Origin: Terriglobia bacterium
GTDB lineage: Bacteria; Acidobacteriota; Terriglobia; Bryobacterales; Bryobacteraceae
Assembly: GCA_020073445.1 (NCBI GenBank)
Contig: JAIQFE010000015.1
Coordinates: 62,001 to 126,000, forward strand
Reading direction: 5' to 3'
Length of the DNA: 64,000 nt
In this document: positions 3,770 to 30,828 of the stretch, piece by piece
Layout of the letters: every line of letters starts with the position of its first letter
How positions within the stretch are numbered: the first letter of the stretch is position 1
The notes under the pieces: model-generated
Databases searched by the model: none
What the model saw: the letters and a program-made list of their open reading frames with translations, nothing else
Told to the model about the DNA's origin: nothing
Made by a program: the position numbers and the translations under genes

Positions 3770-3810
3770 TGAAGAAGTCCCGAAGAAACCATGAAGAATT
3801 CCTGAAGAAC
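3770..3810 (-). promoter_or_regulatory. KdpE-like operator, four 11-bp direct repeats (site A)
   Basis: TGAAGAA or CGAAGAA begins at 3770, 3781, 3792 and 3803, exactly 11 bases apart. On the minus strand each unit reads roughly TTCATGA/TTCTTC, the direction of the small membrane gene at 3742. Exact 11-bp tandem spacing is the pattern expected for head-to-tail binding of OmpR/KdpE-type regulators. The site also lies about 155 bases before the antiporter gene on the plus strand. Confidence 0.65.
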
Positions 3811-3963
3811 GGCCCACGCAGCGGGCCTAAGTTGCTGGTTTCTCAAGGACGAAGTCCGGAAGTCGGACGAATTGTCTTGCGGGAGCGGCCTGCGGAGTGC
3901 GGTAATGAAGGACGGCTCGCGGGGAGCCTGGTAGTCGTCCCTTCGTGACCGTGTCCATAAGCA

Positions 3964-5178
3964 ATGGAACTCAATTTTGGAAATAGCGCGGTGCTGCTGC
4001 TCCTCATCGCATCCGTAGTTGCGATGGTTACGCGACGGCTCCGGCTTCCCTACAGCGTGGGCTTGGTTGCAGCCGGAATGGGCCTGGCGCTACTGCCCTT
4101 CGCACCGAAGATGAGTCTGACAAGAGAGTTGCTTTTCACCGGACTCCTGCCTCCGCTCATTTTCGAGGCCGCGTTCCACCTTCGCTGGAAAGAGCTGCGC
4201 CGAGATCTACCGGTCATCCTCGTCTTGGCGACTGTAGGCGTGCTGGTATCAGCAGGAATCACGATGCTTGGCATGCATTTTCTCGCGCACTGGCAGTGGG
4301 TCAGCGCTCTGGTATTTGGTGTTCTGATTGCCGCCACGGATCCAGTTTCCGTAGTCGCAATGTTCCGCGAGGCCAACGTTCATGGCCGTCTTCGTCTACT
4401 GGTCGAGGCAGAAAGTCTCTTTAACGATGGCACAGCGGCTGTTGCATTCGGTATCGTTATCGTCCTGGCATCAGGACATAACCTTGGCGCGCTGGCCATA
4501 ACAAGGACTGTTCTCGTCACCGCCGGTGGCGGCATCCTCAGTGGGGCGTTAGTTGGGAATCTTGTTCTCTTTCTAATAGGGCGCACAAAGGACCACTTGG
4601 TTGAAACCACCTGTACAACCATCGCTGCTTATGGCTCTTTTCTGCTCGCAGACAGTCTCCATGCATCTGGGGTGTTAGCTACGCTGACAGCCGGGCTTGT
4701 TCTGGGCAATCTGGGAGCTCTCGGGTCCATATCAGACCGGGGCAGCGAAACCGTTCAGGCCTTCTGGGAGTATGCAGCTTTCGTGGCGAATTCCATTGTG
4801 TTTCTCCTCATAGGAATGCACGAGGCGAGTCGAAATTTCGCAATTGCGTGGCTCCCTGCGATGGTTGCGGTTCTATTCGTCACGGTCGGCCGTGCGGCGG
4901 CCGTCTATCCCATCTGTCAGGCGTTCTCTTGGTCCCGCTTTCGCGTGAGCACGCAGCACCAACATGTGTTGTTCTGGGGCGGATTACGCGGTGCATTGGC
5001 ACTGGCGCTCGTATTGGGGCTTCCCGAGGAAGTTCCGCGACGCGAGGAAATCATCACCGTTAGCTTCGCTGTCGTTGCCTTTTCCATCTTCGTCCAGGGC
5101 CTCACGATTACACCAGTGTTGCGCGCGCTTGGAGAGATTCCTGCGCATGACGGCAAGCCATACTCACCGAAAGCTTAG
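3964..5178 (+). CDS. CPA1-family Na+(K+)/H+ antiporter (NhaP-like)
   Basis: This 404-residue integral membrane protein exchanges Na+ or K+ for protons across the inner membrane. About 12 hydrophobic segments cover the whole length. The CPA1 signatures are present: LLPPLIFEAAFHL near residue 62, ATDPVSVVAM near 124 and EAESLFNDGTA near 148, with the Asn154-Asp155 pair that is the expected ion-binding site. GGLRGALALAL near residue 340 is also typical. There is no C-terminal RCK or TrkA domain. It lies beside the Kdp-like genes, which fits a role in cation balance. It ends tail-to-tail with a minus-strand gene, overlapping it by four bases. Whether Na+ or K+ is the substrate cannot be read from the sequence. 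Confidence 0.92.
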   Translation: MELNFGNSAVLLLLIASVVAMVTRRLRLPYSVGLVAAGMGLALLPFAPKMSLTRELLFTGLLPPLIFEAAFHLRWKELRRDLPVILVLATVGVLVSAGITMLGMHFLAHWQWVSALVFGVLIAATDPVSVVAMFREANVHGRLRLLVEAESLFNDGTAAVAFGIVIVLASGHNLGALAITRTVLVTAGGGILSGALVGNLVLFLIGRTKDHLVETTCTTIAAYGSFLLADSLHASGVLATLTAGLVLGNLGALGSISDRGSETVQAFWEYAAFVANSIVFLLIGMHEASRNFAIAWLPAMVAVLFVTVGRAAAVYPICQAFSWSRFRVSTQHQHVLFWGGLRGALALALVLGLPEEVPRREEIITVSFAVVAFSIFVQGLTITPVLRALGEIPAHDGKPYSPKA

Positions 5179-5390
5179 ATTCTGCCATGTTCGCCGTGGT
5201 GCCGTTTCAGGCGTGCAAGCTCTTCATCCAAGATTTGCGCTCGTTTCATGAGTTGTAGAACGTGCGAATCTTCAGCCTCCGTCAGCTCTCTACACTCGGC
5301 AGATGCCGTTGCGACGATACGAGATGCCTCATCGAGCCGGGCAGCCCGCTCGCTCAGCATTTCATCGAAATGTGTGGATTCTTCCATCAC
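5175..5390 (-). CDS. Small coiled-coil protein of unknown function
   Basis: The 71-residue protein is highly charged and mostly helical (SERAARLDEASRIVATASAE, then LTEAEDSHVLQLMKRAQILDEELARLKR), with heptad-like hydrophobic spacing that suggests a coiled coil. There is no signal peptide or membrane segment, so it should be cytoplasmic. Its start overlaps the stop of the upstream membrane gene at 5387-5623 by four bases (ATGA), which implies translational coupling and a joint role. Its end overlaps the antiporter end by four bases on the opposite strand. The family is not recognised. Confidence 0.6.
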   Translation of the reverse strand: MMEESTHFDEMLSERAARLDEASRIVATASAECRELTEAEDSHVLQLMKRAQILDEELARLKRHHGEHGRI

Positions 5391-5623
5391 ATCTGCAAGA
5401 CTCGAAGGATTATTCGGATCGCGAAGGCGAGTAAGCCGGTGCCTAGAACGCGCAGGAACAGTTTCTTGCCCCAGTCTCCCGGATGGACCTCCGGAGAGAG
5501 CTGAAGGTTATCGTGAACAAGGTTCCCGAAACGGGCCGGGGCTAGGAGCATGAACAAGCCTACGCCGCTCCATGCCAGCACCATAGCCGCGTAAATAAAG
5601 ACGATGCCAAGAAGACGGCTCAT
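5387..5623 (-). CDS. Small membrane protein, two transmembrane segments
   Basis: The 78-residue protein has an N-terminal hydrophobic segment (LLGIVFIYAAMVLAWSGVGL) and a second one near the C-terminus (VLGTGLLAFAIRIILRVL), joined by a polar loop containing HPGDWGKK. It is coupled by an ATGA overlap to the coiled-coil gene downstream. A four-unit 11-bp repeat array at 5685-5725 lies about 60 bases before its start and looks like its operator. It sits between kdpA and the antiporter gene, so a link to cation transport is plausible, but no domain is recognised. Confidence 0.7.
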   Translation of the reverse strand: MSRLLGIVFIYAAMVLAWSGVGLFMLLAPARFGNLVHDNLQLSPEVHPGDWGKKLFLRVLGTGLLAFAIRIILRVLQM

Positions 5624-5684
5624 CGTGTCCTCTTTCGATGCCGAGGTAGGAGCACACAGTGCTGACAGGATATGCGGAAAGGCC

Positions 5685-5725
5685 TGAAGGAGTCATGGAA
5701 AAACCGTGAAGAAATCATGAAGACG
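5685..5725 (-). promoter_or_regulatory. KdpE-like operator, four 11-bp direct repeats (site B)
   Basis: Units TGAAGGA, TGGAAAA, TGAAGAA and TGAAGAC begin at 5685, 5696, 5707 and 5718, exactly 11 bases apart. The array fills the gap between the end of kdpA and the minus-strand gene starting at 5623, about 60 bases upstream of that start. It matches sites A and C in unit sequence and spacing. Confidence 0.65.
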
Positions 5726-5765
5726 CCTCGGAAAAGAGGTGTGACGAGCGCTGAACCGCACGAGG

Positions 5766-7454
5766 TCAATGTTGCAGCCATTCCGAGAGGGGTCCCAGCG
5801 CCAGAGCTGGCAGGAAGCACAGCGCCCCGACGAGCAAAATGGTGCCGAGAATCAGCGCTGCGAAGGTGATCGTATCGCTCGGCAGAGTACCGGAAGTCGT
5901 TGGCCAGTGGCGCTGGGCTCCAAACCTTCCAGCAAGTGCCAGGGCAAGGGCCGCCAGCCCGAACCGCCCTGCCAGCATGGCTACCGCCGTCGTGGCATTA
6001 TAAAACCCACTATTGGCGCTTAGGCCGGCCATGTTCTGGCCGTTGTTGGCCATCGACGAGGCGTAGGCGAATAGGATTTCCGTAAAGCCATGCGCGCCGC
6101 CGTTGGTGACTAAGCCGGCCCTCCCCGCTTCCGTTGCAACAGCCAACCCGGTGAGCAGCAGCACGATCGATGGAGTAAGGAGGGTATAGAGGACGATCAA
6201 CTTCGTCTCGTGGGTGCCAACCCTCTTGCCGAGGTATTCCGGCGTTCGACCGACCATCAATCCCCCGAGGAACACGCCGACCAGTGCGATCATGATCATG
6301 CTGTAAATGCCGGTTCCCAGTCCTCCGAAAATGACTTCTCCTAGCAGCATGTTGACCAGTGGCACCAGCACTCCCAACGGTTGATAGGAATCATGCATGG
6401 AGTTGTATGAACCGGTGGCGCCGTTCGAGGTCACGAGAGCCGCGAGCACTGACCCGCTGATGCCGAAACGCACTTCCTTCCCCTCCATATTCCCGCCTGA
6501 CACATGGAGGTTCGCGAGCTGCGGCGGGGTCGCGGCTTCGGCGAAATCACACAATGCCAGGCCGCCGACGAACAACACAACCATCACCGCCAGCAACACC
6601 CACCCCGCGCGAGGTCTTCCCGTCAGGCGACCGAACGTGACGGTGAGCGAGGCGGGCAGCACAGCAATGGCCAGCAACACCAGGAAATTGACTAGCGGCG
6701 TCGGGTTCTCATAAGGGTGGGCGCCGTTGGCGTTGGAAAAGCCGCCACCATTAGTGCCTAGATTCTTGATGAACTCCAGCGCCGCTACCGGCCCTTGAGC
6801 GATGGTCTGAATTCCGCCCTCCAAAGTGTGGACTTCCGTGTAAGGCGCGAGGTTGAATGGTACACCCTGCCAGATCAAGGCGAGGCTGCCCACCAAGGCC
6901 AGAGGTAAGAGGACCCATAGCAGAGCTCGGACCAGATCCACCCAGAAGTTGCCGACCGTGGCTGAACGTTCCCGGGCAAAGCCTCGGATGAAGGCGATCC
7001 CTACGGCCAAACCGGCTGCTCCCGCCAGGAAATTTTGCGAGACCAAGCCAAGCAGTTGGGTCATGTACCGAAGAGTAGTCTCGCCACCGTAGGCTTGCCA
7101 GGTTGTCGTCGTCGAGAAACTGATTGCTGTGTTCGCCGCCAGATCTGCGGTCATGGGCATAGTCAGGTAGCGATCGGCGGGTCCACCAGGAAGCCAACGT
7201 TGGACCAGCAACAGGAGGACCAACCCCACCGTGCTTACCGCGCTGAAAAGCAGGAAGCATAGGGCGTATACACCCGCAGACATCTCTCGGGCTCTGTGGA
7301 TCCCTAACCACCGATAGAGGAATGATTCGACCGGGCGGAGTGCGGGATCAAGAAAAGTGGGCTTCCGCTCGAACACCCGAGCCAGATAAAGGCCCACAGG
7401 CCGGGCCAGCCCGACGACCAGTGCTAGAAAAATGAGGTATCCCTGCCAGCGCAT
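5766..7454 (-). CDS. kdpA: Potassium-transporting ATPase, K+-binding subunit KdpA
   Basis: KdpA is the channel-like subunit of the KdpFABC high-affinity K+ pump. The 562-residue protein shows the four pore-loop repeats: TTTTWQAYGGE (about residue 95), GTNGGGFSNANGAHPYENPT (about 225), NGATGSYNSMHDSY (about 345) and NNGQNMAGLSANSGFYN (about 470). Length and hydrophobic profile fit intact KdpA. The ATG at 7454 follows the kdpC stop by seven bases and has a GAGAG site; the frame extends further upstream but would overlap kdpC. In the first loop both Asn of the TNTNWQ seen in E. coli are Thr here. kdpB, normally between kdpA and kdpC, is absent from the window, and the order kdpC-kdpA is inverted relative to the usual operon. 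Confidence 0.95.
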   Translation of the reverse strand: MRWQGYLIFLALVVGLARPVGLYLARVFERKPTFLDPALRPVESFLYRWLGIHRAREMSAGVYALCFLLFSAVSTVGLVLLLLVQRWLPGGPADRYLTMPMTADLAANTAISFSTTTTWQAYGGETTLRYMTQLLGLVSQNFLAGAAGLAVGIAFIRGFARERSATVGNFWVDLVRALLWVLLPLALVGSLALIWQGVPFNLAPYTEVHTLEGGIQTIAQGPVAALEFIKNLGTNGGGFSNANGAHPYENPTPLVNFLVLLAIAVLPASLTVTFGRLTGRPRAGWVLLAVMVVLFVGGLALCDFAEAATPPQLANLHVSGGNMEGKEVRFGISGSVLAALVTSNGATGSYNSMHDSYQPLGVLVPLVNMLLGEVIFGGLGTGIYSMIMIALVGVFLGGLMVGRTPEYLGKRVGTHETKLIVLYTLLTPSIVLLLTGLAVATEAGRAGLVTNGGAHGFTEILFAYASSMANNGQNMAGLSANSGFYNATTAVAMLAGRFGLAALALALAGRFGAQRHWPTTSGTLPSDTITFAALILGTILLVGALCFLPALALGPLSEWLQH

Positions 7455-7461
7455 AGGACTC

Positions 7462-8112
7462 TCAACGAGCGGTGAGCCGGGCTGCCTGGTCGAGAGCAAG
7501 ATTCAGATCGAGCACCGACACCCGAGGGTCGCCCATGAACCCCAGTTGCGGCCCTTGCGTGTAGTCGGCCAACAGACGGCGAACCACATCCTCTTGGAGG
7601 CCGCGCGTACGCGCCACGCGTGGAACCTGAAGGGCCGCGTTTTGCGGACTGATATGCGGGTCGAGTCCGCTACCTGAGCGTGTGACCGCATCGATGGGGA
7701 CGGCGGCGTCCGGAGGCAGTCCATTGCTTCTGCGGTAATCCTCGGCCAACTGCCGGACGCTCTCGACGAGCTTCGCGTTGTTTGGGCCGAGGTTCGTTCC
7801 GCCGGAGGAAGCGCCGTCATAGCCGGTCCCGGCTGCCGAGGGCCGCGGGTGAAAGTACTCGGGCCGGGTGAAGTCCTGGCCGATCAGCCGGGAACCGATG
7901 ACGACGCCATTGCGCGTCACTAGACTACCGGCGGCTTGTGCGGGATAGAGCAACCGGCCAAGAGCAAATAGCACCAAGGGAAAGATACATCCGGTGAGCA
8001 ACGTGAGCGAAATGACGCTGACAACCGCCAGGCGTATATGCTCGCGGAGCTTCACAACGGGCGCGGGTGCCGAGGCCCCGCGCATCGGGTCGAATGGTTC
8101 GTCGGAAGTCAC
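7462..8112 (-). CDS. kdpC: Potassium-transporting ATPase subunit KdpC
   Basis: KdpC is the single-span subunit that associates with KdpA/KdpB and is thought to assist K+ loading. The 216-residue protein has one N-terminal membrane helix (about residues 27-50, with LTLLTGCIFPLVLFAL) and a periplasmic domain with the family motifs IGSRLIGQDFTRPEYFHPRPSA, GTNLGPNN, DAVTRSGSGLDPHIS and AALQVPRVARTRG. It overlaps the upstream small membrane gene by four bases (ATGA), and kdpA follows after seven bases, so the three are probably translated together. Without KdpB in the window, the source of ATPase activity is unclear. Confidence 0.95.
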   Translation of the reverse strand: MTSDEPFDPMRGASAPAPVVKLREHIRLAVVSVISLTLLTGCIFPLVLFALGRLLYPAQAAGSLVTRNGVVIGSRLIGQDFTRPEYFHPRPSAAGTGYDGASSGGTNLGPNNAKLVESVRQLAEDYRRSNGLPPDAAVPIDAVTRSGSGLDPHISPQNAALQVPRVARTRGLQEDVVRRLLADYTQGPQLGFMGDPRVSVLDLNLALDQAARLTAR

Positions 8113-8527: not shown

Positions 8528-8568
8528 TGAAAAAGTCATAGAAAAAGCGTGAAGGATTCATGAAGATT
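8528..8568 (-). promoter_or_regulatory. KdpE-like operator, four 11-bp direct repeats (site C)
   Basis: Units TGAAAAA, TAGAAAA, TGAAGGA and TGAAGAT begin at 8528, 8539, 8550 and 8561, exactly 11 bases apart. The array overlaps the last codons of the response regulator gene and lies about 160 bases before the small gene that starts the kdpCA unit on the minus strand. This is where an E. coli-type KdpE site would be expected relative to kdp structural genes. Confidence 0.7.
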
Positions 8569-9256
8569 CGGGTATCCCATTGAAACGATAGCCAATCCAG
8601 GGTTCAGTCGTGATGTATTGCGGATGATCCGGATCTGGCTCAATCTTTTTCCGAAGGTTCTTTATAAACGCTCGAAGGTAGTCAACTTGGTCGCCATAAT
8701 CGGGTCCCCAAACTGACTGCAGCAATTCCCGATGCGGTACGGCTTCATTGGCGTGCTGCGTGAGGTATCTGAGCAGATCCAGTTCTTTTGGGGTTAGATG
8801 GACGCTGGATGTTCCGCGCGTCACAGTTCGCGCTGCGAAGTCGATCGAGAGTTCACCAAAGTGCAAGCGGTTGGGCGCAGACTGTGGTACCGGTACGCGC
8901 CGCAGGGCAGCGCGTATGCGGGCGAGAAGCTCAGGCGTGCTGAACGGCTTCGTCACGAAGTCGTCCGCGCCGGCATCCAAGGCTTCGACCTTGTCCGCCT
9001 CCGTGTTGTGAACCGTCAGCATGATGATGGCAACATTCGGGTCGGCACGAATTTCCCGGCACGCCGCCAGGCCGCCCATTCCGGGCATGTTGATATCGAG
9101 GAGCACCAGGTCCGGGCGGAACTCCCGGAGTTTCGTAAGTCCTTCCTCACCCGTCTTGGCATCGTCCACTTCGTATCCGGCCCCAGTCAGAGTCGTGCGC
9201 ATAATCCGCCGGATCTGCGGTTCGTCGTCTACGACCAGAATTCGGCCGGCGCTCAA
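8558..9256 (-). CDS. KdpE-like response regulator (OmpR family)
   Basis: This 232-residue regulator has a receiver domain (residues 1-120: acidic pair Asp10-Asp11, phosphoacceptor Asp54 in LLDINMPG, conserved Lys in TKPF) and an OmpR/PhoB winged-helix domain (about 130-230: LTPKELDLLRYL, GYRF). A TTG start at 9256 is preferred because AGGAGAG lies just before it and the protein then begins SAGRILVVDDEP as paralogues do. The frame is open to 9358, but that stretch overlaps the upstream kinase gene and has no domain character. It is paired with the truncated kinase at 9288-10580 and lies before kdpCA, so it is the likeliest KdpE equivalent. Confidence 0.9.
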   Translation of the reverse strand: MSAGRILVVDDEPQIRRIMRTTLTGAGYEVDDAKTGEEGLTKLREFRPDLVLLDINMPGMGGLAACREIRADPNVAIIMLTVHNTEADKVEALDAGADDFVTKPFSTPELLARIRAALRRVPVPQSAPNRLHFGELSIDFAARTVTRGTSSVHLTPKELDLLRYLTQHANEAVPHRELLQSVWGPDYGDQVDYLRAFIKNLRKKIEPDPDHPQYITTEPWIGYRFNGIPESS

Positions 9257-9287
9257 CTCTCTCCTGCCTTTCGGTCGGATGGAAACG

Positions 9288-10580
9288 TCAGCCGGAGGGG
9301 CTCCTATACAAGCGTTCAAAAATGCGGCTCTGCTCCTGGGATGGTATCCCTTTCCCATAATCAGTCACCGCCACCGTGACGCCGCTTCCGTTGTGAACGC
9401 GAACGGTCACGGGTGTATCGGGAGGGGAGTACTTCAGGGCGTTATCCAGAAGCTGCTTGATCGCCAGCTTAACTAACCGTCGGTCAACGGGCGCGGCCGG
9501 TGGGTGTTCCTCGCAGACCACGTTCAGAGGGCGGCCGTCGATCACATTGTGCATCGAAGCGATCACCTCGCGAACGAGCTCGCCGACATTTGAGGGTTCC
9601 GTGTGAAGCTGAATGTTCGCCGTGTCCAACCGTCCCATCTCCACGGCGTCATCGATGAGCTCATTGAGGTGCTTGGCTTCCTCATCCGCGATCTTGACCA
9701 ACTCCGACCTGCTGTTCGCAGGTTGATCCGGATTGGCCATGAGTGAGGTGGTGGCGGCCATGATCGATGTCAACGGGGTCTTGAACTCATGCGCCATTGC
9801 ATCCAGCAGCGTAATTCGAAGCTTTTCACTTCGTCGCGCGGCCTCGATCTGAGAGGAGAGATCCTGCGCCCGCGCCCGTTCCAGTCCGATGGCCACCAGG
9901 TTGGCGATTCCCTGGAGGACGGCATCCGGCATCTCAGCCCCCTGGAGTGCGAGGCCTGCAATCGGCTCCGATCCCAGACGCACCGCCGTGATCACTCGAT
10001 GGTGCTGGGTGTCTGCAAAGGATGTACCCTGCAAGGCCGAGTCGCGAAGCTGATCGTCAAGACCGTCAAAATCCAAGGGGCCGGCACGATAAAACTCCTC
10101 AGCGCGGCGCTCGTAGAGCACCACCGCACCCAAATCGAAGATCTCAGCGAGTTTTCGGACTAATTGTTTCGGAAACGGTTCAGTGCTGTCTATCAGCAGG
10201 ATCGCCCGGCTGAAGGTGTATAGCCTCTCCAAGTCCTGTTGCCGCTCGACAGCGTCCAACGCCCGGCGTTTGACCTCTGCGGATAGGCGGCTGGCAATGA
10301 GCGCCGTCGTCAGAAAACTAAACAGGGCCACCCAGTTTTGTGGATCCGCGATGGTGAATCTTCCAACCGGCGGCAAGAAGAAGTAATTGAAGGTGAGCGT
10401 GGCGGCCACCGAGGCGATGGAGGCCTCAAAGAAGCCCCAGAAACTGGCGACGATCAACACCAGGAGCAGGTATGCGAACCCGATCGTCGTTGCATTGACC
10501 GGAAGCAAGTTATAACCGGCCACCGTGACCACCGCTACGCCGGCGAGCGATAGTACCAACCGCAGAACGCGTTGACCCAA
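9288..10580 (-). CDS. KdpD-like sensor histidine kinase lacking the G2 box (truncated)
   Basis: The 430-residue protein starts with a four-helix DUF4118 membrane domain (about residues 8-105, including NYFFLPPVGRFTIADPQNW as in KdpD), a GAF-like segment, a HisKA dimerisation domain (MAHEFKTPLTS, about 265) and part of a HATPase domain with N box (KQLLDNALKYS) and intact G1 box (VTDYGKGI). It stops at FERLYRSPSG, just where the G2 box (GxGLGL) and the last 45-50 residues should follow; no reading frame downstream supplies them. The N-terminal KdpD/Usp modules of classical KdpD are also absent. The start codon is TTG. It may be an inactive remnant, a phosphatase-only form or a scaffold. Confidence 0.85.
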   Translation of the reverse strand: MGQRVLRLVLSLAGVAVVTVAGYNLLPVNATTIGFAYLLLVLIVASFWGFFEASIASVAATLTFNYFFLPPVGRFTIADPQNWVALFSFLTTALIASRLSAEVKRRALDAVERQQDLERLYTFSRAILLIDSTEPFPKQLVRKLAEIFDLGAVVLYERRAEEFYRAGPLDFDGLDDQLRDSALQGTSFADTQHHRVITAVRLGSEPIAGLALQGAEMPDAVLQGIANLVAIGLERARAQDLSSQIEAARRSEKLRITLLDAMAHEFKTPLTSIMAATTSLMANPDQPANSRSELVKIADEEAKHLNELIDDAVEMGRLDTANIQLHTEPSNVGELVREVIASMHNVIDGRPLNVVCEEHPPAAPVDRRLVKLAIKQLLDNALKYSPPDTPVTVRVHNGSGVTVAVTDYGKGIPSQEQSRIFERLYRSPSG

Positions 10581-11324: not shown

Positions 11325-11364
11325 GGATGACTTTCTTTCCGGGGTTCCAGTATTGAAGAGAAAC

Positions 11365-11385
11365 CATAAAAAGCGCATAAACTCC
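11365..11385 (-). promoter_or_regulatory. KdpE-like operator, two 11-bp repeats (site D)
   Basis: On the minus strand the site reads TTTATGCGCTTTTTATGG, two TTTATG units exactly 11 bases apart. This is very close to the E. coli KdpE site (TTTATA, five bases, TTTACA). It lies 41-61 bases before the start at 11324. Confidence 0.65.
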
Positions 11386-11438: not shown

Positions 11439-11482
11439 TTGATAACTTTTTCACGATCCATAAAAGAGTTATGTAAACTGGT
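11439..11482 (+). promoter_or_regulatory. KdpE-like operator, two pairs of 11-bp repeats (site E)
   Basis: TTGATAACTTT (11439) and TTCACGATCC (11450) are 11 bases apart, as are ATAAAAGAGTT (11460) and ATGTAAACTGG (11471). The site lies 36-79 bases before the small membrane gene that starts at 11518 and shares the divergent region with site D. Confidence 0.5.
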
Positions 11483-11820: not shown

Positions 11821-12555
11821 TCAATCCTCGGTTGCGACCGGCGGCGAATCGGGATCTGACGGATTACAGAAGCGATATCCTAGCCACGGCTCCGTCAATA
11901 TGTATTCCGGGTTCGACGGATCGCTCTCGATCTTCTTCCGAAGCATTCTTACGTAGGACCGTAAGTACTCCAGTTCGTTCCCGTACTCCACGCCCCAGAC
12001 CGTTCGCAGGAGCTTCACGTGGGTCAGAGGAGCGCCAGCGTTCTTCATCATGAACGCCAGCAGATCGAATTCCTTCGGCGAGAGGTGAATGTCCTCTCCG
12101 TCCCGGCGCAGGACACGTTCATGAACGTCCATCTCCAAGTTACCAGCCCGAAGAACCACGGGCTCGACTGCGTCCGACATGCGAGTCCGCCTGAGCACGG
12201 CTCGAAGACGCGCGGTGAGTTCGCGGAGTTTGAAGGGCTTGGTGACGTAGTCGTCCGCTCCAGCCTCCAAAGCTCGAACCTTGTCATCCTCCTGGTCGCG
12301 GACCGTGACCATGACGATGCCGGCTTGCGGAGAGATTCCGCGGATCCGCCGGCAGGCATCGATTCCGCTCATGCCGGGCATGCTGACATCCAGCAGTACC
12401 AAGTCAAACTGATGTTGCTGAACCGAACCTAGCGCCTCCTCTCCGCTGCGGGCTTCTTCGACGTCAAAGCCGCTGGCAGTTAAGGAAGTTCGAAGTGCCT
12501 TGCGGAGCGCAGATTCGTCGTCCACTACAAGAACGCTACTATGCTGTGAGAGCAT
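11821..12555 (-). CDS. KdpE-like response regulator (OmpR family)
   Basis: The 244-residue regulator has a receiver domain with the acidic pair at residues 12-13, phosphoacceptor Asp56 in LLDVSMPGMSG, the Thr of VTVRD and the Lys of TKPF. A winged-helix output domain follows (LSPKEFDLLAFM, VWGVEYGNELEYLRSYVRMLRKKIE, GYRF). It overlaps the end of the kinase gene at 12539-14014 by 17 bases, which marks a kinase/regulator pair. It is closely similar to the regulator at 16233-16979, especially in the output domain, so the two may recognise the same 11-bp repeats. Confidence 0.93.
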   Translation of the reverse strand: MLSQHSSVLVVDDESALRKALRTSLTASGFDVEEARSGEEALGSVQQHQFDLVLLDVSMPGMSGIDACRRIRGISPQAGIVMVTVRDQEDDKVRALEAGADDYVTKPFKLRELTARLRAVLRRTRMSDAVEPVVLRAGNLEMDVHERVLRRDGEDIHLSPKEFDLLAFMMKNAGAPLTHVKLLRTVWGVEYGNELEYLRSYVRMLRKKIESDPSNPEYILTEPWLGYRFCNPSDPDSPPVATED

Positions 12556-14014: not shown

Positions 14015-14085
14015 ATCGTAACCGCCTAGCACTAGTTTACCCAGCTACCGCTTTTAGCCGCCTAGCTCATCATCTCGTACAGTTC

Positions 14086-14124
14086 GTAAAAAAGTTATAA
14101 AAACGTGAAAAAGTTGTGAAAGAG
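14086..14124 (-). promoter_or_regulatory. KdpE-like operator cluster (site F)
   Basis: Two pairs of 11-bp spaced units are seen: TAAAAAAG (14087) with TAAAAACG (14098), and TGAAAAA (14106) with TGAAAGA (14117). On the minus strand they read as T-rich TTTCAC/TTTTTAC units. The cluster lies 70-110 bases before the kinase gene starting at 14014. Confidence 0.5.
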
Positions 14125-14153: not shown

Positions 14154-14173
14154 TTTTATGCCTTTTTAATGGC
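14154..14173 (+). promoter_or_regulatory. KdpE-like operator (site G)
   Basis: TTTTATGCC followed by TTTTTAATGG places ATG-type cores 11 bases apart. Nearly the same sequence (ATGCCTTTTT) recurs at sites H and I and, as ATGCCTTCTT, at site J. It lies about 150 bases before the secreted protein gene at 14320. Confidence 0.6.
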
Positions 14174-16992: not shown

Positions 16993-17011
16993 TTCATGCC
17001 TTTTTTATGGA
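16993..17011 (+). promoter_or_regulatory. KdpE-like operator (site H)
   Basis: TTTCATGCC and TTTTTTATGG have ATG cores 11 bases apart (16996 and 17007). The second core overlaps the first possible start codon of the following gene at 17007, so a bound regulator there might also block initiation or transcription, or the true start lies further downstream. Confidence 0.55.
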
Positions 17012-17585: not shown

Positions 17586-17702
17586 ACTGGACTTCATACT
17601 GATTTCACCGAGTCGTACTTAACTGTTCATCAAATCGACCGGCTCACGAAGGGCTAGTTAGTCAGACCTTCCTGAGCGTAAAGGAAACCATTGGTTGTTG
17701 CT

Positions 17703-20354: not shown

Positions 20355-20361
20355 GGCCTCT

Positions 20362-22651: not shown

Positions 22652-22670
22652 TTTATGCCTTCTTTATCCT
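22652..22670 (+). promoter_or_regulatory. KdpE-like operator (site J)
   Basis: TTTATGCC and TTTATCC have TTTAT cores exactly 11 bases apart (22652 and 22663). This is the closest match in the window to the E. coli KdpE site. It lies about 70-87 bases before the membrane-fusion protein gene. Confidence 0.65.
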
Positions 22671-22738: not shown

Positions 22739-23875
22739 ATGAAAAACATAACAGTGAAAGCTGTTCTTCTGGCTCTAAGTATTCCCGCATTGCTCACCCT
22801 TCACGGCTGCAATAAAGTTCAGGCAGATGCCGCAGCGGAGGCGCCGCCGGCCGCGAAGGTCGTTCCGGACGTGGACATCGCGCTGTTCGCCGTCGACCAT
22901 CCGGAGCAGTTCCCATTCACCACGGCAACCGAGCACCCCACGACTTCGGAGTTGACGGTTACGGGAACAGTGAACCCGGATGTTTCCCGCAGTGTTCCCG
23001 TTGTGTCTCTGGCGACCGGCCGCGTAACAGCGATTCACGCGCGCTTGGGCGACAACGTGAAAGCCGGGCAAGTCCTGCTGAGCATCCGGAGCGACGACGT
23101 GCAGAGCGGGTTTGCCGACTACCGCAAAGCGGTTCGTGACGAAGTGTTGGCACGAACGCAGCTGGAACGCGCCCAGGATCTGTTCAGCCACGGCGCGATC
23201 GCCCAGGCCGACCTTCAGGTAGCTGAGGACACCGAAGACAAAGCCAAGATCGATGTCGAGACCACAGGGGAGCATCTGAAGCTGCTTGGCAATGATCCCA
23301 ACAACCCGAAAGGGGAAGTGGAAGTGATGGCTCCCGTTTCGGGAGTGATTACCGATCAGCAGGTCACCAACTCCGCGGGTATACAGGGCCTGGGCTCGAC
23401 ACCTTTTACGATTTCCGATCTCTCCAGCGTGTGGATCATTTGCGACGTGTATGAAAACGATCTGGCCACGGTGCACATCGGTGACGCCGCCGAGGTTCGC
23501 TTGAACGCATATCCCGGGCAAATCTTTAAAGGAAAGGTCAGCAACATCGGCACAATCCTTGACCCCAGTCTCAGGACCGGAAAAGTTCGCATCGAAGTGC
23601 AAAATCCAGGAATGATGCGCCTCGGCATGTTTGTAACCGCGACCTTCCGCGGTCAGGCGATGGAGATGCATACTGAAGTGCCAGCGAGCGCCATCTTGCA
23701 CATCCATGACCGGGACTACGTCTACGTGCCCGCGCCGGACAACAAGTTCAAGCGACTCGAGGTCGTCAGCGGCGACCAGCTACCCGGCAACATGCAGGAA
23801 ATCAAGTCCGGCATCAAAGCAGGCCAGCAGCTGGTGGCCAACGCCCTGGTGTTGGAACGCACCATCGATCAATAG
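22739..23875 (+). CDS. RND efflux periplasmic adaptor (CusB/CzcB-like lipoprotein)
   Basis: The 378-residue protein links the inner-membrane pump to the outer-membrane channel. It begins with a lipoprotein signal (LLTLHGC, lipid-attached Cys about residue 22). The adaptor features follow in order: a barrel-sandwich hybrid (GRVTAIHARLGDNVKAGQVL), a helical hairpin (about residues 130-185), the return half of the hybrid (EVMAPVSGVITDQQVTNSAG), a beta-barrel (SVWIICDVYENDLATVHIG) and a membrane-proximal domain. A classical metal-binding His or Met cluster is not evident. The gene begins the efflux operon and is preceded by KdpE-like site J. Confidence 0.9.
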   Translation: MKNITVKAVLLALSIPALLTLHGCNKVQADAAAEAPPAAKVVPDVDIALFAVDHPEQFPFTTATEHPTTSELTVTGTVNPDVSRSVPVVSLATGRVTAIHARLGDNVKAGQVLLSIRSDDVQSGFADYRKAVRDEVLARTQLERAQDLFSHGAIAQADLQVAEDTEDKAKIDVETTGEHLKLLGNDPNNPKGEVEVMAPVSGVITDQQVTNSAGIQGLGSTPFTISDLSSVWIICDVYENDLATVHIGDAAEVRLNAYPGQIFKGKVSNIGTILDPSLRTGKVRIEVQNPGMMRLGMFVTATFRGQAMEMHTEVPASAILHIHDRDYVYVPAPDNKFKRLEVVSGDQLPGNMQEIKSGIKAGQQLVANALVLERTIDQ

Positions 23876-23926
23876 AGCGATCAATTGGAGTAAGCGTCGG
23901 AGTAAAGGCTTCCGGAGAAAAGAAAA

Positions 23927-26900
23927 GTGATTCGGGCTCTTGTAGATTTCGCGTTGAACAACAAAGTGGTCGTGATTGCGATCGGGATGCTCCTGCTCGG
24001 CTGGGGCGCCATCTCCTTTCACAACCTGCCCGTGGAGGCGTATCCCGATATCGCGGACAACTACGCAACCATCATTACCCAGTGGCCGGGCAGGGCTGCC
24101 GAGGAAGTAGAGCAACAGGTCACCATCCCGCTCGAGATCGCGATGAATGGAATCCCCCATCGGACGCATCTCCGCTCCGAATCGGTGTTCGGCCTGTCTT
24201 TCATCATCATCATTTTCGATGACGGCTCGAACAACGATTGGAACCGGCAGAAAGTCATCGAAAAGATGGCGCAAGCCGACTTGCCCGACGGCCTACAGCC
24301 TTCAATGGGAACCGATTGGAGCACCACAGGACAGATTTACTGGTATGTGCTGAAGAGCACCAACCCTCAGATCGATCTCATGGATCTCAGATCCCTCCAA
24401 GACTATGTCGTCTCGAAGGAAATCAAATCCGTTCCCGATATCGTGGACGTGAGCACCTTCGGCGGGATAACGCGGGAATATCAAGTCCGAGTCGACCCCA
24501 ACAAGCTCGTGTCTTACGGAATGACCATCGGCCAGGTGGAGCAGCAGCTTTCGAACAACAATGTCAATGCCGGAGGCAACTTCATTGAAACCGGATTGCA
24601 GCAGATGAACGTCCGGGCGATCGGTCTGTTCCGAAACGTCAAAGATATCGAGCAAACGGTCTTGACGACCAAAACCGGGACACCGCTTCGCGTCAAGGAT
24701 ATCGCCGAGGTGGCTCAGGGCCCGAAGGTTCGCCTGGGTCACGAAGGCCGGGCGATCCGACGGGAGGACGGTACGGTGGTCGACAATGGCGACGTGATCT
24801 TTGCGCAAGTGATGATGCGCAAAGGCGCGGACTCGGGGCCCACACTCGACGGGCCTAATGGCCTTCACGCCAAAGTCAAACAACTCAACGAGAGCATCCT
24901 CCCTCCGGGCGTGAAGCTGGAGAAGATGATCGACCGCAGTGACCTTTTGGGTTTCACCTTGAACACGGTCATGCACAACCTGGGTGAGGGAATGATTCTG
25001 GTGGCGATCATCCTGTTCCTGTTCCTGCTGAACGTGCGCGCGGCACTCATCGTGTCGCTGACCATTCCGTTCTCGTTGCTATTCGCTTCCATCTGGCTCG
25101 GAGCGACGAAGGTTCCCGTCAACCTGCTCTCGCTGGGTGCGTTGGATTTCGGGATGGTGGTGGACGGCGCCGTGGTGATGGTCGAGAACATCGTACGCCA
25201 CTTGACCCGGCGTCAAAGCGCGGAAGGCCAGCAGAAATCCGTCGCGGAGACGATACGTGACGCTTCTCATGAGGTCCAACGCCCCGTCTTCTATGCCATC
25301 GTCATCATCATCACAGCCTATTTGCCCATCTTTACGCTGGAGCGAATCGAAGGCCGGCTGTTTCGTCCCATGGCCTGGACGGTAGCCTTTTCTCTTTTAG
25401 GCGCGATGACCTTCTCGATCCTGCTCGCGCCCGTGCTGGCCAACATGTTTTTCCGGAAAGGGGTCAAGGAAACCCACAATCCGGTGATGGAATATCTCAC
25501 GGAGCGCTATCGCAGGCGCCTGCGCTGGGCCATCCAGCACCGCTGGGTCACGGCGAGCGTCGGCGTGATCGCGCTGGGTGTCTCTGCTTTCCTGCTCCTC
25601 AGTGGAATCATCGGCGGAGAGTTTCTGCCCCATCTGGACGAAGGCGCTATCTGGGCTCGCGGCACGCTTGCACAGAGCACAAATCTCACGGAAGGCACGC
25701 GGTTCATGAATCAGGCGCGCGTGGTATTCGCGGCTTTCCCCGAGGCGAAACAAGTAATCTCCGAAATCGGCCGGCCGGATGACGGCACCGATACCGGTGG
25801 TTTCGGCAACACCGAATACTTCATCGATCTGAAGCCGAAGGACGAATGGCGCCCGGTGTTTCACAGAGACAAGGACGAATTAATCGCGGCGATGAATCGA
25901 GAGGCGGAAAAGCTGCCGGGCGCTACGTGGAATTTTTCCCAGCCCATTGAAGACAACGTCGGGGAAACGCTCACGGGCACCAAAGGGCAGCTCGCGCTGA
26001 AGATCTACGGCTCCGACCTGAGGGCTCTCGAAGACACGGGCGATCAGGTGATCAATGTGATGCGTAACGTTCCTGGAATTAAGGACGTGAAGTTGTACCG
26101 CGATACCGGCCAGCCGAACGTGAACTTCACCATAAACCGTCCGGCGGCCGCGCGTTTCGGTGTCAATGTCAGCGATATCCAGGACGTCATTGAAACCGCC
26201 GTCGGCGGGAAGGCGGTAAGCACGGTACTGCCGGCGGGCACTCCCGAGCGTTACGACGTCGTGGTGCGCTATCTGGAGCCATACCGCAAAGATCCGAAAG
26301 CCATCAGCAATATTCGGATCGTTGCTCCTACGGGAGAACGCGTGGCCCTTTCCCAGCTCACGAACCTGGAAATCCGCGACGGCGCTTACGATATCTACCG
26401 GGAAGAAAGCAGTCGGTACGTCAGTGTCACTTTTAACGTCCGCGAACGGGACCTGAACAGCGCCGTGGAAGACGCCATGGCTCAGATCAATCAGAAGGTC
26501 AAGCTCCCACCGGGATACCGGCTGGGATTGACAGGCGAATATGAGAGCTCGAAACGCGCTCAGGCGCGTCTGGCCGTGATTGTGCCCCTAACGCTGCTGG
26601 TCATCTTCATCATCCTCTATACGATGTTCCACTCGGCGAAGTGGGCCGGCCTGATTTTGGCCGTAGTCGCGATGGCGCCGATCGGAGGATTGCTGGCGCT
26701 TTACTTCACCGGCACTCATTTCAGCGTCTCGTCGGGAATCGGCTTCCTGGCGCTGTTCGGCGTATCGGTCCAAACCGGCGTCATCATGCTGGAGTACATC
26801 AATCAGCGTCGCGCCAGGGGCCACAATATCGTCGACGCGGCCATCGAGGGTGCGGTACTGAGACTTCGGCCGATCATGATGACGTCGCTGGTCGCGACGT

Positions 26901-27088
26901 TCGGGCTGGTTCCCGCGGCTCTGTCGCACGAAATCGGTTCCGACTCGCAGCGGCCCTTCGCCATCGTCATCGTGGGTGGACTAGTTGCAGCGCTCTTCAT
27001 GAGCATCGTCCTGCTGCCCACGCTATATGTCTGGATCGCGAGGGACGGGGACAAGCTTCCGGAACCGGAGGCATCTGGTGACCACTAG
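23927..27088 (+). CDS. RND efflux pump, heavy-metal (HME/CzcA-like) subfamily
   Basis: The 1053-residue inner-membrane proton-driven transporter has the RND layout: helix 1, a periplasmic porter region, helices 2-6, a second periplasmic region and helices 8-12. Helix 4 carries GALDFGMVVDGAVVMVEN, with Asp407, Asp413 and Glu420 at the spacing of the essential proton-relay residues Asp402, Asp408 and Glu415 of CzcA. This supports the metal-exporting HME branch, probably for divalent ions. The start is GTG at 23927. It lies 51 bases after the adaptor gene. The metal exported cannot be deduced from the sequence. Confidence 0.93.
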   Translation: MIRALVDFALNNKVVVIAIGMLLLGWGAISFHNLPVEAYPDIADNYATIITQWPGRAAEEVEQQVTIPLEIAMNGIPHRTHLRSESVFGLSFIIIIFDDGSNNDWNRQKVIEKMAQADLPDGLQPSMGTDWSTTGQIYWYVLKSTNPQIDLMDLRSLQDYVVSKEIKSVPDIVDVSTFGGITREYQVRVDPNKLVSYGMTIGQVEQQLSNNNVNAGGNFIETGLQQMNVRAIGLFRNVKDIEQTVLTTKTGTPLRVKDIAEVAQGPKVRLGHEGRAIRREDGTVVDNGDVIFAQVMMRKGADSGPTLDGPNGLHAKVKQLNESILPPGVKLEKMIDRSDLLGFTLNTVMHNLGEGMILVAIILFLFLLNVRAALIVSLTIPFSLLFASIWLGATKVPVNLLSLGALDFGMVVDGAVVMVENIVRHLTRRQSAEGQQKSVAETIRDASHEVQRPVFYAIVIIITAYLPIFTLERIEGRLFRPMAWTVAFSLLGAMTFSILLAPVLANMFFRKGVKETHNPVMEYLTERYRRRLRWAIQHRWVTASVGVIALGVSAFLLLSGIIGGEFLPHLDEGAIWARGTLAQSTNLTEGTRFMNQARVVFAAFPEAKQVISEIGRPDDGTDTGGFGNTEYFIDLKPKDEWRPVFHRDKDELIAAMNREAEKLPGATWNFSQPIEDNVGETLTGTKGQLALKIYGSDLRALEDTGDQVINVMRNVPGIKDVKLYRDTGQPNVNFTINRPAAARFGVNVSDIQDVIETAVGGKAVSTVLPAGTPERYDVVVRYLEPYRKDPKAISNIRIVAPTGERVALSQLTNLEIRDGAYDIYREESSRYVSVTFNVRERDLNSAVEDAMAQINQKVKLPPGYRLGLTGEYESSKRAQARLAVIVPLTLLVIFIILYTMFHSAKWAGLILAVVAMAPIGGLLALYFTGTHFSVSSGIGFLALFGVSVQTGVIMLEYINQRRARGHNIVDAAIEGAVLRLRPIMMTSLVATFGLVPAALSHEIGSDSQRPFAIVIVGGLVAALFMSIVLLPTLYVWIARDGDKLPEPEASGDH

Positions 27089-27110
27089 GGGAGCGAATTC
27101 GGTGAGTTCC

Positions 27111-28385
27111 ATGAAACGTGTATTGTGGGTTTCTTTGATTGCGTTGGTCTGCCTTCATCCGGGCACGCTGCGCGGTCAAAATGCCACGCAAGGACCGGTC
27201 AAGATTACGCTGGATCAAGCCATTCAACTGGCGCTGCAGCAGAACCATAGTTTGCTGGCCAACCGCACTAACGTTCAGCAGGGTCTGGCCCTGGAGGTGA
27301 CCGCCAATCTGCGTCCCAACCCTACGGTTTTCGCTGACTGGGCGTACCTGCCGATCGTCACCCCGGAAGGCGGCTGGGGTACTTACCTCCACGATCTATC
27401 GGAGATCGACGCGGGCGTAAGTTACACGATCGAGCGCGGCGGAAAACGCGCTCGCCGCCTTCAGGCCGCCAAGGACGCGACCACAGTCACGCGCACGCAG
27501 GTGCTCGATAACGAGCGTACGCTCACATTTCAGGTCGCCTCGGATTTCATTAACGCTCAGCTCGCTAATTCCATGGTGGATCTGGCGCAGCAGAATCTGA
27601 AGAGCTTTCAGGATACGGTGGACGTCGCTCAGAATCAGTACCGGGCCGGCGGGATCAGCGAGAACGATTTCCAGAAGATCAAGCTCCAGTTGCTGCAATT
27701 TGAAACTGACCTGCAGACGGCTCAACTGACCCGGGCCCAAGCGCTGGCCGATCTTCGCCAGCAACTCGGTTATGAAGCCGTGCCCGCGGATTTCGATATT
27801 TCGGGCACGTTCGAGTACCAGCCCTTGATGGTCAGCCTCGACCAATTGCAAGCGAAAGCCCTGGAGAATCGTCCAGACCTTCGCGCTGCGTTGCAGAGCA
27901 TTACGGCAGCAAAGAGTCAGCTCGAATTGGCTAAAGCGAACGGAAAGCAGGACCTGGGCGTTACTGGAAACTATTCGCACGTCAATGCGGGCAACCACGT
28001 GACCTTTGCGGTGAATATTCCTCTGCCGATTTTCGACCGCAACCAGGGCGAGATCGCCCGGACGCAGGTCGCCATGACTCAGGCACGCCAGCAGGAAGCG
28101 GCAGCGCACGGACAGGTCCTGACTGACGTGAAACAAGCATACGACGCATTGGTAAGCAGCGACCGCGTGGCGCAATTGTTTCGAACCACCTATCTTAACG
28201 TGTCCCAGAGGAGCCGCGATATCAGCGAGTATTCGTACCGTCGTGGAGCGGGAACGCTGCTGGATTTTCTGGATGCCGAGCGCAGCTATCGTGCTACCCA
28301 GCTCGCGTACCGCCAGGCGCTCGCCACCTACCTAACGGCGATCGAACAGTTGCGACAGGTTGTAGGGACCAGGAGTCTACAGTGA
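27111..28385 (+). CDS. Outer-membrane efflux channel (TolC/CzcC-like)
   Basis: The 424-residue protein begins with a signal peptide (MKRVLWVSLIALVCLHPGTLRG) and has two outer-membrane-efflux repeats: one starts at ITLDQAIQLALQQNHSLLANR and the second near residue 260 (LQAKALENRPDLRAALQSI). Long coiled helices with Gln/Ala-rich heptads and PLPIFDRNQGEIARTQ are typical of CzcC/TolC proteins. The start at 27111 is chosen because it begins the signal peptide and follows GGTGAG; the longer frame overlaps the pump gene. It completes the tripartite efflux system and overlaps the next gene by four bases. Confidence 0.9.
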   Translation: MKRVLWVSLIALVCLHPGTLRGQNATQGPVKITLDQAIQLALQQNHSLLANRTNVQQGLALEVTANLRPNPTVFADWAYLPIVTPEGGWGTYLHDLSEIDAGVSYTIERGGKRARRLQAAKDATTVTRTQVLDNERTLTFQVASDFINAQLANSMVDLAQQNLKSFQDTVDVAQNQYRAGGISENDFQKIKLQLLQFETDLQTAQLTRAQALADLRQQLGYEAVPADFDISGTFEYQPLMVSLDQLQAKALENRPDLRAALQSITAAKSQLELAKANGKQDLGVTGNYSHVNAGNHVTFAVNIPLPIFDRNQGEIARTQVAMTQARQQEAAAHGQVLTDVKQAYDALVSSDRVAQLFRTTYLNVSQRSRDISEYSYRRGAGTLLDFLDAERSYRATQLAYRQALATYLTAIEQLRQVVGTRSLQ

Positions 28386-29754: not shown

Positions 29755-29936
29755 TGGTGAAGAAACAGCAGGATCGCATGCATTCCGGAACAGACGATCG
29801 TTACAGCGGTGTGCGGCTTCGTTGCAGGAAATGCGGCATAGTCAAGCTGACCATGGACGAGTTGCAGAAGCTCGTGCTCGTAAACCCTGACTCGCGCCGC
29901 TGCCCAACATGCGGCTCCATAGCCGTGTTCGTCTGA
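29754..29936 (+). CDS. Small zinc-ribbon protein
   Basis: The 60-residue protein has two CxxC knuckles, CRKC (about residue 24) and CPTC (about residue 50), 22 residues apart, which should bind one zinc ion in a rubredoxin-like ribbon. There is no signal peptide or membrane segment. It is the last gene of the overlapping unit that starts with the efflux adaptor. It could sense metal or bind nucleic acid; the sequence does not decide. Confidence 0.65.
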   Translation: MVKKQQDRMHSGTDDRYSGVRLRCRKCGIVKLTMDELQKLVLVNPDSRRCPTCGSIAVFV

Positions 29937-30041
29937 TTCCCAAGCTCTCATGCCGAATTATGCTAGATGCGCGCGGGACGCCGGTGACGTCACGCCGAAA
30001 CGCACTGATTGTGCGTCGGCAAGTCGAAATGAGGAGGTCAT

Positions 30042-30659
30042 TTGAAATTGAGATCGGGAGCTAACACACTTGCAGTGCTCTTGCTCGGAGTTACTGGGTC
30101 TTCGCGAGCGGTCCAAGCACAGGAAGTGAGCGGGTATTTTGGAATGGGCGGCACGCATGCCAGCTCCAGCGGCGCCCAGATCGATACGTTCGGCGACGGC
30201 ACTTTGCACGGCACTCCGAGGCTGGGAGGATTCTGGGGAACGGTCGGCGGAAATATCTTCTTCACCAAGCGCTTCGGCTTTGGCGCGGAAACGTCTTGGA
30301 AGATCCAATCCGATTATGCCGGAATTCAGTATCGCCCCTCGTTCTACAATTTCGATGCGATCTTCCGGCCCGCCAGAACGACCACCAAGCGGTGGACGCC
30401 AGAAGTTCGCGCGGGCCTCGGCGGCACCCACGTCAACTATTTCCCTGATGATCCTAGTTTCTGCGACCAAATTGCCGGTTGTCCGTCGTCGCGCCATTTC
30501 CAGGTGCATCTGGGAGTGTCCGCGCCTTGGTACGCGACGAAGCATATCTTTATCCGGTCCGCAGTCGATGTTCACTATGTGAGGAACCTCTTCGAGTTTG
30601 GAAGTAATTGGGTGCCTCAGTATTCGGTTGGTATCGGATATAGTTTCGGAAGGGAATGA
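30042..30659 (+). CDS. Outer-membrane beta-barrel protein
   Basis: The start is TTG at 30042 with a strong GAGGAGG site. The 205-residue product has a signal peptide (about residues 1-27) and then alternating aromatic and glycine-rich strands (GGFWGTVGGNIFFTKRFGFG, WTPEVRAGLGGTHVNYF) ending in YSVGIGYSFGRE, typical of a small eight-stranded OmpA/OmpW-like barrel. Two Cys (in SFCDQIAGC) may form a loop disulphide. The function is unknown. Confidence 0.75.
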   Translation: MKLRSGANTLAVLLLGVTGSSRAVQAQEVSGYFGMGGTHASSSGAQIDTFGDGTLHGTPRLGGFWGTVGGNIFFTKRFGFGAETSWKIQSDYAGIQYRPSFYNFDAIFRPARTTTKRWTPEVRAGLGGTHVNYFPDDPSFCDQIAGCPSSRHFQVHLGVSAPWYATKHIFIRSAVDVHYVRNLFEFGSNWVPQYSVGIGYSFGRE

Positions 30660-30675
30660 AGCTGGCGACACCGGC

Positions 30676-30756
30676 TTAGCTGGCCGATGCCTCCCGCACA
30701 TCGCCGACCAGCGATTCGAGCACGTCCTCCAGGGTGATCCTCCTAACGCCATCCAT
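30676..30756 (-). pseudogene. C-terminal remnant of a CNNM/CBS (CorC-like) gene
   Basis: Read leftward, this stretch encodes MDGVRRITLEDVLESLVGDV and then REASAS before a stop. The intact gene at 31516-32553 ends with ITLEDVL-type sequence: TLEDVLESLVGDVREAPAR. The two DNA segments are nearly the same over about 65 bases, 840 bases apart. No upstream part of the gene remains here, so it is a duplicated tail or the scar of an ancestral paralogue. Confidence 0.7.
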
Positions 30757-30785
30757 CCGTAGGGATTTCAAACAGATGGCTGATC

Positions 30786-30828
30786 TTCATAAAATCTTCC
30801 TGACTTTTCTATGACTTCTTCACATCCT
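30786..30828 (+). promoter_or_regulatory. KdpE-like operator, four 11-bp direct repeats (site K)
   Basis: TTCATAAAATC, TTCCTGACTTT, TCTATGACTTC and TTCACATCC begin at 30786, 30797, 30808 and 30819, exactly 11 bases apart. A fifth partial unit (TTCCATATATC) follows one base out of phase. It lies 33-75 bases before the small gene at 30861 and has the same unit type as sites A-C. Confidence 0.65.

Follow-up and report, generated by a model that had tools for sequence, protein, structure and literature searches.

Two classes of putative KdpE-type operators, built on an 11-bp step, in a gene island of an acidobacterial genome

The locus

This study concerns a stretch of 64,000 nucleotides from a Terriglobia bacterium (contig C19, positions 62001-126000, of a genome, G000, of 6.58 Mb in 102 contigs), called here the window, and in particular the short direct repeats that precede many genes of an island in its left part (3.0-31 kb). 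An earlier note on this DNA had listed eleven places with repeats spaced by 11 bp, had likened them to the binding site of KdpE in Escherichia coli, and had assigned them all to one regulon. Our analysis makes it quite probable that the repeats are operators of KdpE-family regulators (OmpR/PhoB fold) lying in sigma-70-type promoters, and that they form two classes: class I, TTCATGACTTC, usually of four units, before kdpFABC and genes of small membrane proteins, and class II, TTTATGMCTTTTTTATG, of two units, before BBP2 porins, a CusA-type RND pump and regulator genes.

From left to right, Pfam recognises in the window SecDF, a Na+/H+ exchanger, KdpA and KdpC, and then four pairs in which a DUF4118 histidine kinase (HK) adjoins one KdpE-like response regulator (RR); it also calls a PII-like protein, a BBP2 porin and the adaptor, pump and channel genes of an RND system. 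The genes that matter most below are the following (recognition helices are given for the regulators).

5766..8112, minus strand: kdpC and kdpA, kdpB absent (Pfam and relatives)
8558..9358, minus strand: RR1, KdpE-like response regulator, helix YLRAFIKNLRKK
9288..10580, minus strand: HK1, DUF4118 histidine kinase (Pfam; KdpD N-domain not found)
11821..12555, minus strand: RR2, KdpE-like, helix YLRSYVRMLRKK
12539..14032, minus strand: HK2, DUF4118 histidine kinase (Pfam)
14786..16264, plus strand: HK3, DUF4118 histidine kinase (Pfam)
16233..16979, plus strand: RR3, KdpE-like, helix YLRTYVRMLRKK
17691..19544, plus strand: BBP2 porin (Pfam)
20332..21891, plus strand: HK4, DUF4118 histidine kinase (Pfam)
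21895..22632, plus strand: RR4, KdpE-like, helix YLRVFMHQLRKK
22739..28385, plus strand: RND efflux genes, namely adaptor, CusA/CzcA-family pump and outer-membrane factor (Pfam and family comparison)

The repeat sites of the window, located by a class I and a class II matrix, are listed with the -10-like hexamer and the gene or open reading frame (ORF) that follow them.

3770..3809, minus strand: class I four-unit array; CATCAT 3752-3757; before small membrane-protein ORF 3518-3742 (-)
5685..5724, minus strand: class I four-unit array; TATCCT 5667-5672; before small membrane-protein ORF 5387-5623 (-)
8528..8567, minus strand: class I four-unit array; TACGCT 8510-8515; upstream of small ORF 8109-8366 (-), kdpC and kdpA
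11365..11381, minus strand: class II two-unit site; AATACT 11349-11354; before small ORF 11037-11324 (-)
14085..14120, minus strand: two two-unit sites (14085-14101 and 14104-14120); GATGAT 14069-14074 for the nearer one; before HK2-RR2
14155..14171, plus strand: class II two-unit site; CAAACT 14182-14187; before a small ORF read from 14320
16993..17009, plus strand: class II two-unit site; CACACT 17020-17025; before an ORF resembling a helix-turn-helix (HTH) protein
17568..17584, plus strand: class II two-unit site; CATACT 17595-17600; before the BBP2 porin
22652..22668, plus strand: class II two-unit site; TATTCT 22679-22684; before the MFP-RND-OMF genes
30783..30822, plus strand: class I four-unit array; TATCTT 30835-30840; before ORF 30861-31091 (+)

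Ten of the eleven places listed earlier thus hold up by matrix, and one is weak: 11439..11455 (plus strand) was not accepted, being a two-unit match of score 15.4 with no -10 at the offset shared by the others. Two further good sites lie 0.5-1.1 kb to the left of the window, at C19:60898 (the promoter of a kdpFABC operon) and C19:61469 (a small membrane-protein gene). The small ORF at 8109-8366, 162 nt from the array at 8528-8567, resembles the small membrane-protein ORF family smallM_A. The HTH label of the ORF behind 16993 comes from the earlier note, Pfam having given no match; its start is probably at or after 17049, because the ATG at 17007 falls inside the site.

Results

Spacing and rarity of the repeats

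In the 2,779 intergenic nucleotides of 3.0-31 kb, there are 43 pairs of 7-mers at distance 11 that agree in at least six of seven positions. Among the other distances from 7 to 30, 22 comes second with 21 pairs and the rest give 0-15. The claim that 11-bp direct repeats are enriched here is thereby borne out. A coarser gene mask with more flanking DNA gives 48 pairs at 11, 38 at 12 and a mean of 14 at the others. There is no peak at distance 11 (124; range 72-239) when the whole 64-kb window is taken with its coding sequence, because codon periodicity then dominates. Chains of three units in the intergenic DNA of 37 loci (our genome and its relatives) number 27 at distance 11 (some of which, such as L036:4897, L036:5110 and L070:13818, are clearly not such arrays), against 1, 8, 2, 6, 2, 7 and 4 at distances 8, 9, 10, 12, 13, 14 and 15.

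Strong copies are also rare. With at most two mismatches, the four-unit pattern is found in the whole genome only at C19:60.9-76.1 kb, at C36:39.8 kb and once on C95, while the two-unit pattern gives 13 matches and its reversed form 1. A composite pattern, TTYATGMCTTYTTYA-N12-NANNCT, has 7 matches at no more than one mismatch, all 7 on the island or at the kdp locus of C36, and 12 of 15 there at up to two; at up to three it gives 34 matches versus 14 reversed. The motif is therefore not as frequent elsewhere, the outcome that the earlier note had named as telling against its proposal: its strong copies lie on the island and at the second kdp operon. These strong matches are local, and weak matches in genome-wide scans mean little. 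The match on C95 (position 3679) opposes the orientation of the adjoining Trans_reg_C-TPR gene, and may be due to chance or belong to another regulator. A class II-like site on C65 (61747-61779; L038) is located past the end of a regulator whose receiver domain matches poorly; the gene that it faces encodes an outer-membrane beta-barrel.

A fixed distance to a -10-like hexamer

Neither the patterns nor the matrices that collected the sites used sequence downstream of the array. When class I sites are anchored at their last TTCTTCA and offsets 0-39 are scanned, TAnnnT stands 12 nt downstream in 25 of 31 sites and is absent at all other offsets, except for 1 case at offset 4 and 3 at offset 38. 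These 31 sites are the 32 matrix matches scoring at least 22, minus L077 3488. The latter was restored (anchored at 3477) when the 32 were split by target, and it does not pass the -10 test; nAnnnT is found at 12 nt in 11/11 kdp, 17/19 non-kdp and 2/2 other-family sites, and the stricter TAnnnT in 11/11 kdp and 13/19 non-kdp sites. Of 28 noncoding class II sites, 26 have nAnnnT at this distance too, with 0-5 at other offsets in 2-39; the 6 of 34 matches that fall inside ORFs of at least 130 aa were set aside, though all 6 show nAnnnT at the offset. L144 and L145 stand outside this count, each with one match (score at least 20) in a coding ORF and without a -10. A -10-like hexamer 12 nt downstream implies that the array occupies the position of the -35 element.

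The same geometry bears on the direction of reading. An ORF follows within 400 nt in the TTCTTCA direction for 29 of 32 class I matrix matches (own and related loci), and 17 of the 32 also face some ORF, often short, the opposite way; the position of the -10 favours the TTCTTCA direction. The site at 3770 might also serve the divergent gene of the Na+/H+ exchanger, 151 nt from it.

Could all this be fortuitous, or follow from the composition of AT-rich intergenic DNA? At three mismatches, matches to the plain four-unit pattern are indeed not far above those of its reversed form (17 overlapping matches versus 9 in the whole genome; 8 versus 5 in our own genome and 12 versus 7 in the related genome G014 in a cross-genome scan), and a reversed-sequence scan of the loci with the class I matrix was unclean, with 26 reversed matches versus 37 real ones at threshold 17. 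We discarded this last control, whose uncleanness comes from the resemblance of the array to itself reversed, and used the spacing and -10-offset controls in its place. The results of both strongly oppose chance, as do orientation and conservation, and we regard this explanation as extremely improbable.

Regulators and sites go together

RR1-RR4 all have a receiver and a Trans_reg_C domain by Pfam, in agreement with the earlier statement that four KdpE-like regulators are encoded here; the best PDB match of RR1, the one regulator searched, is E. coli KdpE. Equivalents of its R193, R200 and T215 are kept in all four (residues matched by hand).

We took at least 81% identity to RR1 as defining an RR1 class and at least 58% to RR2 an RR2 class, cut-offs that were chosen after the lists had been seen, and counted only pattern matches with 0-1 mismatch, because 51 of 61 genomes match at two. 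The RR1 class occurs in 9 of 23 genomes of the genus, and a class I site in 8 of these 9 versus 1 of the 14 others (Fisher P 1.6e-4); the ninth, G021, has a kdp site with 3 mismatches. Among the matches listed, which for the genus lack only weaker rows of G008, the RR2 class and class II clusters occur in the same 5 of 23 genomes (G000, G004, G005, G007 and G009; P 3e-5), five genomes that had been noted as a prediction alongside the search. Both tests count each genome as an independent case, and the class I sites include many orthologues.

The recognition helix reads YLR-(A/V)F(I/V)K(S/N/T)LRKK in the RR1 class, with M for K in G011, and YLR-(S/T/F)YV(R/K)(M/T/F)LRKK in the RR2 class. Other kdp-linked regulators mostly have NQ in this place, and the kdp promoters of genomes with other subclasses use different units (CTTCCTTATG in G026 and G029; CATCCTTA in G007 and G009). 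Taken together, these co-occurrences are suggestive of a pairing of RR1 with class I and of RR2 with class II.

Two classes, different targets

The class I array precedes a USP-like gene at both kdp operons of our genome and in G004, G011, G014, G016, G017, G019, G021 and G022; kdpA follows in all of them but G019, where no kdpA ORF was found between the site and the contig end. At 8 loci of 7 genomes the array lies 2.60-2.68 kb upstream of kdpB. Both kdpFABC operons of this genome, and kdp of its relatives, are thus preceded by arrays of one type, which upholds the likening of the repeats to KdpE operators. In G014, class I arrays also precede relatives of the window's small ORFs and of the PII-like gene; two relatives (92-93%) of the 76-aa ORF at 30861 (L073, L074) are each preceded there by the same four-unit array. 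Class II sites are mostly found away from kdp and, in G004, G005, G007 and G009, around BBP2 porins, the u19.6 family, RND adaptors and HK-RR genes. That the predicted targets include a porin and an RND metal pump (CusA/CzcA-type) is supported, with sites before both. As for kdp, the array before kdpC and kdpA stands, and these two are the only kdp genes inside the window, without kdpB.

A model with a single motif for all sites was dropped on account of this split, and the claim that they form one single regulon is not supported: across 23 genomes, each site class goes with its own regulator subclass in all cases but one. It might still be argued that any of the four regulators can read any of the sites. 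The 11-bp step, the distance of 12 nt to the -10 and a TT(T/C)A core are found in both classes, all four regulators have the key arginines, and the small ORF at 11037-11324, which here lies behind a class II site, has a relative in G014 with a class I array. However, the genomic segregation, together with the difference at helix positions 197-198 (KN/KS/KT versus mostly RM/RT), speaks for separate readers, and we consider the one-regulon hypothesis unlikely.

BBP2 porin-like genes adjoin kdp genes in several Acidobacteriota (L077, L078, L211, L230, L233, L235 and L253; one of the surveys drawn on annotated 28 of 80 loci), and the class I site of G012 precedes a BBP2 porin. Their vicinity to kdp hints at an outer-membrane route for potassium.

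Breadth beyond the genome

Three-unit chains at distance 11 lie no more than 2.6 kb upstream of kdpA at 10 of 20 related loci and 10 of 21 loci of other Acidobacteriota, other spacings in 7-17 giving at most 1 and 3 respectively. (The 20 related loci are those for which a kdpA start was taken; L070, L079, L084, L090, L094, L097, L098, L100 and L101 were excluded.) Fifty loci of other phyla, assigned by record title, gave 7 chains at distance 11, no enrichment compared with 9 at distance 9. A coarser spacing spectrum has its 11-bp peak in the genus and in four loci of the same order or class. Judged by these predictions, tandem arrays of at least three units appear to characterise many acidobacterial kdp promoters, though not all of them. 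In the open-access PMC literature, we found no title or abstract on such sites in Acidobacteriota.

Discussion

Proposed mechanism

Each 11-bp step would bind one DNA-binding domain, head to tail, and dimers of the phosphorylated regulator would probably cover the array in the same manner. The promoter-proximal unit, 12 nt upstream of the -10 hexamer, would replace the -35 element and contact RNA polymerase at that position, so that the phosphorylated regulator probably activates by holding the polymerase. Class I arrays (kdpFABC, small membrane proteins and associated genes) would be read by KdpE of the RR1/RR5 type, RR5 being the regulator beside the C36 kdp operon, and class II sites (BBP2 porins, the CusA-type pump, sensor-regulator genes) by paralogues of the RR2/RR3 type, perhaps also RR4. 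The signal would presumably be K+ or some other ion, and in the case of class II perhaps a different ion or a condition of the envelope.

A more general scenario, to which we give roughly even chances, is that in Acidobacteriota the regulators of KdpE type act from 11-bp arrays of three or four units, which take the place of the -35 at a constant 12 nt from the -10. The family would then have radiated, its paralogues changing helix residues 197-198 and drifting to new unit sequences within an unchanged promoter frame, so that one island came to contain regulons for potassium, porins and metal efflux.

Several observations weigh against our interpretation and should be stated together. G012 has a good class I site (before its BBP2 porin) without an RR1-class regulator or kdpB at the cut-offs used, and G011 does not follow the K197 pattern. 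Sites and regulators belong to common gene clusters in related genomes, so that part of their co-occurrence reflects linkage and shared descent, to which must be added the dependence between genomes already mentioned. The change of class at the small ORF 11037-11324 (its G014 relative is 71% identical) means that the classes are not cleanly split by gene. Regarding the promoter frame, nAnnnT is also common at offsets 9 (6/11) and 10 (5/11) in the kdp class I set, two of the 19 non-kdp sites do not have it at 12, and of the 11 kdp loci from other subclasses that were anchored by eye, 5 have TAnnnT at 12, 1 has nAnnnT and 5 have neither. The two-unit sites at 14085-14101 and 14104-14120 are set 19 bp apart and do not make one regular array. 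Finally, nine loci of the same family and other genera have no clear peak at 11 (29; mean of the others 19, maximum 61).

Mapped KdpE sites are few, four species being counted in PMC5401905, and here an operator-promoter frame is predicted at dozens of sites in one genus, with predicted arrays in front of 20 of the 41 acidobacterial kdpA genes examined, about half. The frame separates two classes of regulator paralogues that differ at few helix residues, which makes directly testable how duplicated response regulators gain separate targets, and it points to possible roles of small membrane proteins and BBP2 porins that have to do with ions.

Other features of the island and of the kdp operons

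The genome has two kdpFABC operons, one on C19 and one on C36, the latter missed by the earlier note, as were the -10 at 12 nt and the absence of kdpB from the kdp genes of the window. Its two kdpB genes both lie away from the kdpC-kdpA pair of the window. Among named loci, the nearest relatives of KdpA are mostly from Candidatus Sulfotelmatobacter and other acidobacterial metagenome-assembled genomes, though the very closest carries a Gammaproteobacteria label; at nine loci whose KdpA is 57-68% identical to that of the window, no KdpB-like gene was seen in the stretch examined, some contigs ending nearby. A clade of stand-alone KdpA seems to exist.

Pfam did not find the KdpD N-domain in HK1-HK4, all of which carry DUF4118; KdpD-domain ORFs are located outside them, at C19:52-54 kb and C36:45-47 kb. 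Each kdp operon has two short KdpD proteins (365-371 aa) with a G-X5-GKS/T Walker A motif (L036:7748-9964 and L035:12356-14566), distinct from the DUF4118 kinases. Short forms of KdpD without kinase domains are described in PMC11018627.

In several class I promoters (window 3742 and 8500; L036:17525; L070) an ATG lies only 8-9 nt past the predicted -10, which suggests leaderless or near-leaderless mRNAs. An ORF of 62-75 aa, out of frame over a small membrane-protein gene (window 8312-8539), is kept in G014 (L070:10810-10998).

Comparison with known systems

PhoB binds 11-bp direct repeats that overlap the -35, and Pho box promoters are in this respect like the arrays described here, in which the repeats would replace the -35; they differ in regulator subfamily and target genes. 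Geometry alone thus leaves room for the hypothesis that a regulator of PhoB type recognises the arrays as Pho boxes and that their proximity to kdp is incidental. Three points oppose it: the strong copies are at kdp loci and the genes named above (phosphate genes were not searched for), RR1, encoded beside the arrays, has E. coli KdpE as its best PDB match, and the arrays are enriched upstream of kdpA in other Acidobacteriota. We think that the Pho box reading is very unlikely.

According to PMC3264566, the E. coli KdpE site is TTTATA-N5-TTTACA, within an element at -72 to -50, and R193, R200 and T215 are important. The likeness extends to the 11-bp step, the TTTA core, the coding-strand orientation, the kdp target and the conserved contact residues. 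A half-site pair of this type is seen in class II (TTTATGMCTTTTTTATG) and in many TTTA/CTTA arrays of other Acidobacteriota, class I units having mostly TTCA in place of TTTA. When the class II matrix, which was built without E. coli, is run over the 312 nt that precede E. coli kdpF, the known KdpE site, TTTATACTTTTTTTACA, comes out best, read on the coding strand; this result is tempered by the 2.8% of random 312-mers that score as high. The E. coli site has two half-sites and kdp as its target, whereas class I has four units and the sites here have many non-kdp targets. It also lies at -72 to -50 and not on the -35, unlike the arrays here, 12 nt from the predicted -10; this is a further argument against our reading, and we treat the 12-nt placement as a variant geometry that does not define the family.

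Only 0.1% of random 22-mers reach the score that the class I pair matrix gives to the 22-bp minimal KdpE site of Mycobacterium smegmatis; this site can be read as two A-rich units 11 bp apart, close to those of class I. PMC5401905 describes this motif as without noticeable similarity to other KdpE motifs. M. smegmatis has one site at one operon, where we see many sites, and low K+ is the signal in both the M. smegmatis and the E. coli systems. KdpE operators are known in kind; what appears to be new is the predicted use of multi-unit arrays on the -35 in a 12-nt register, in two classes that would correspond to two classes of regulator paralogues.

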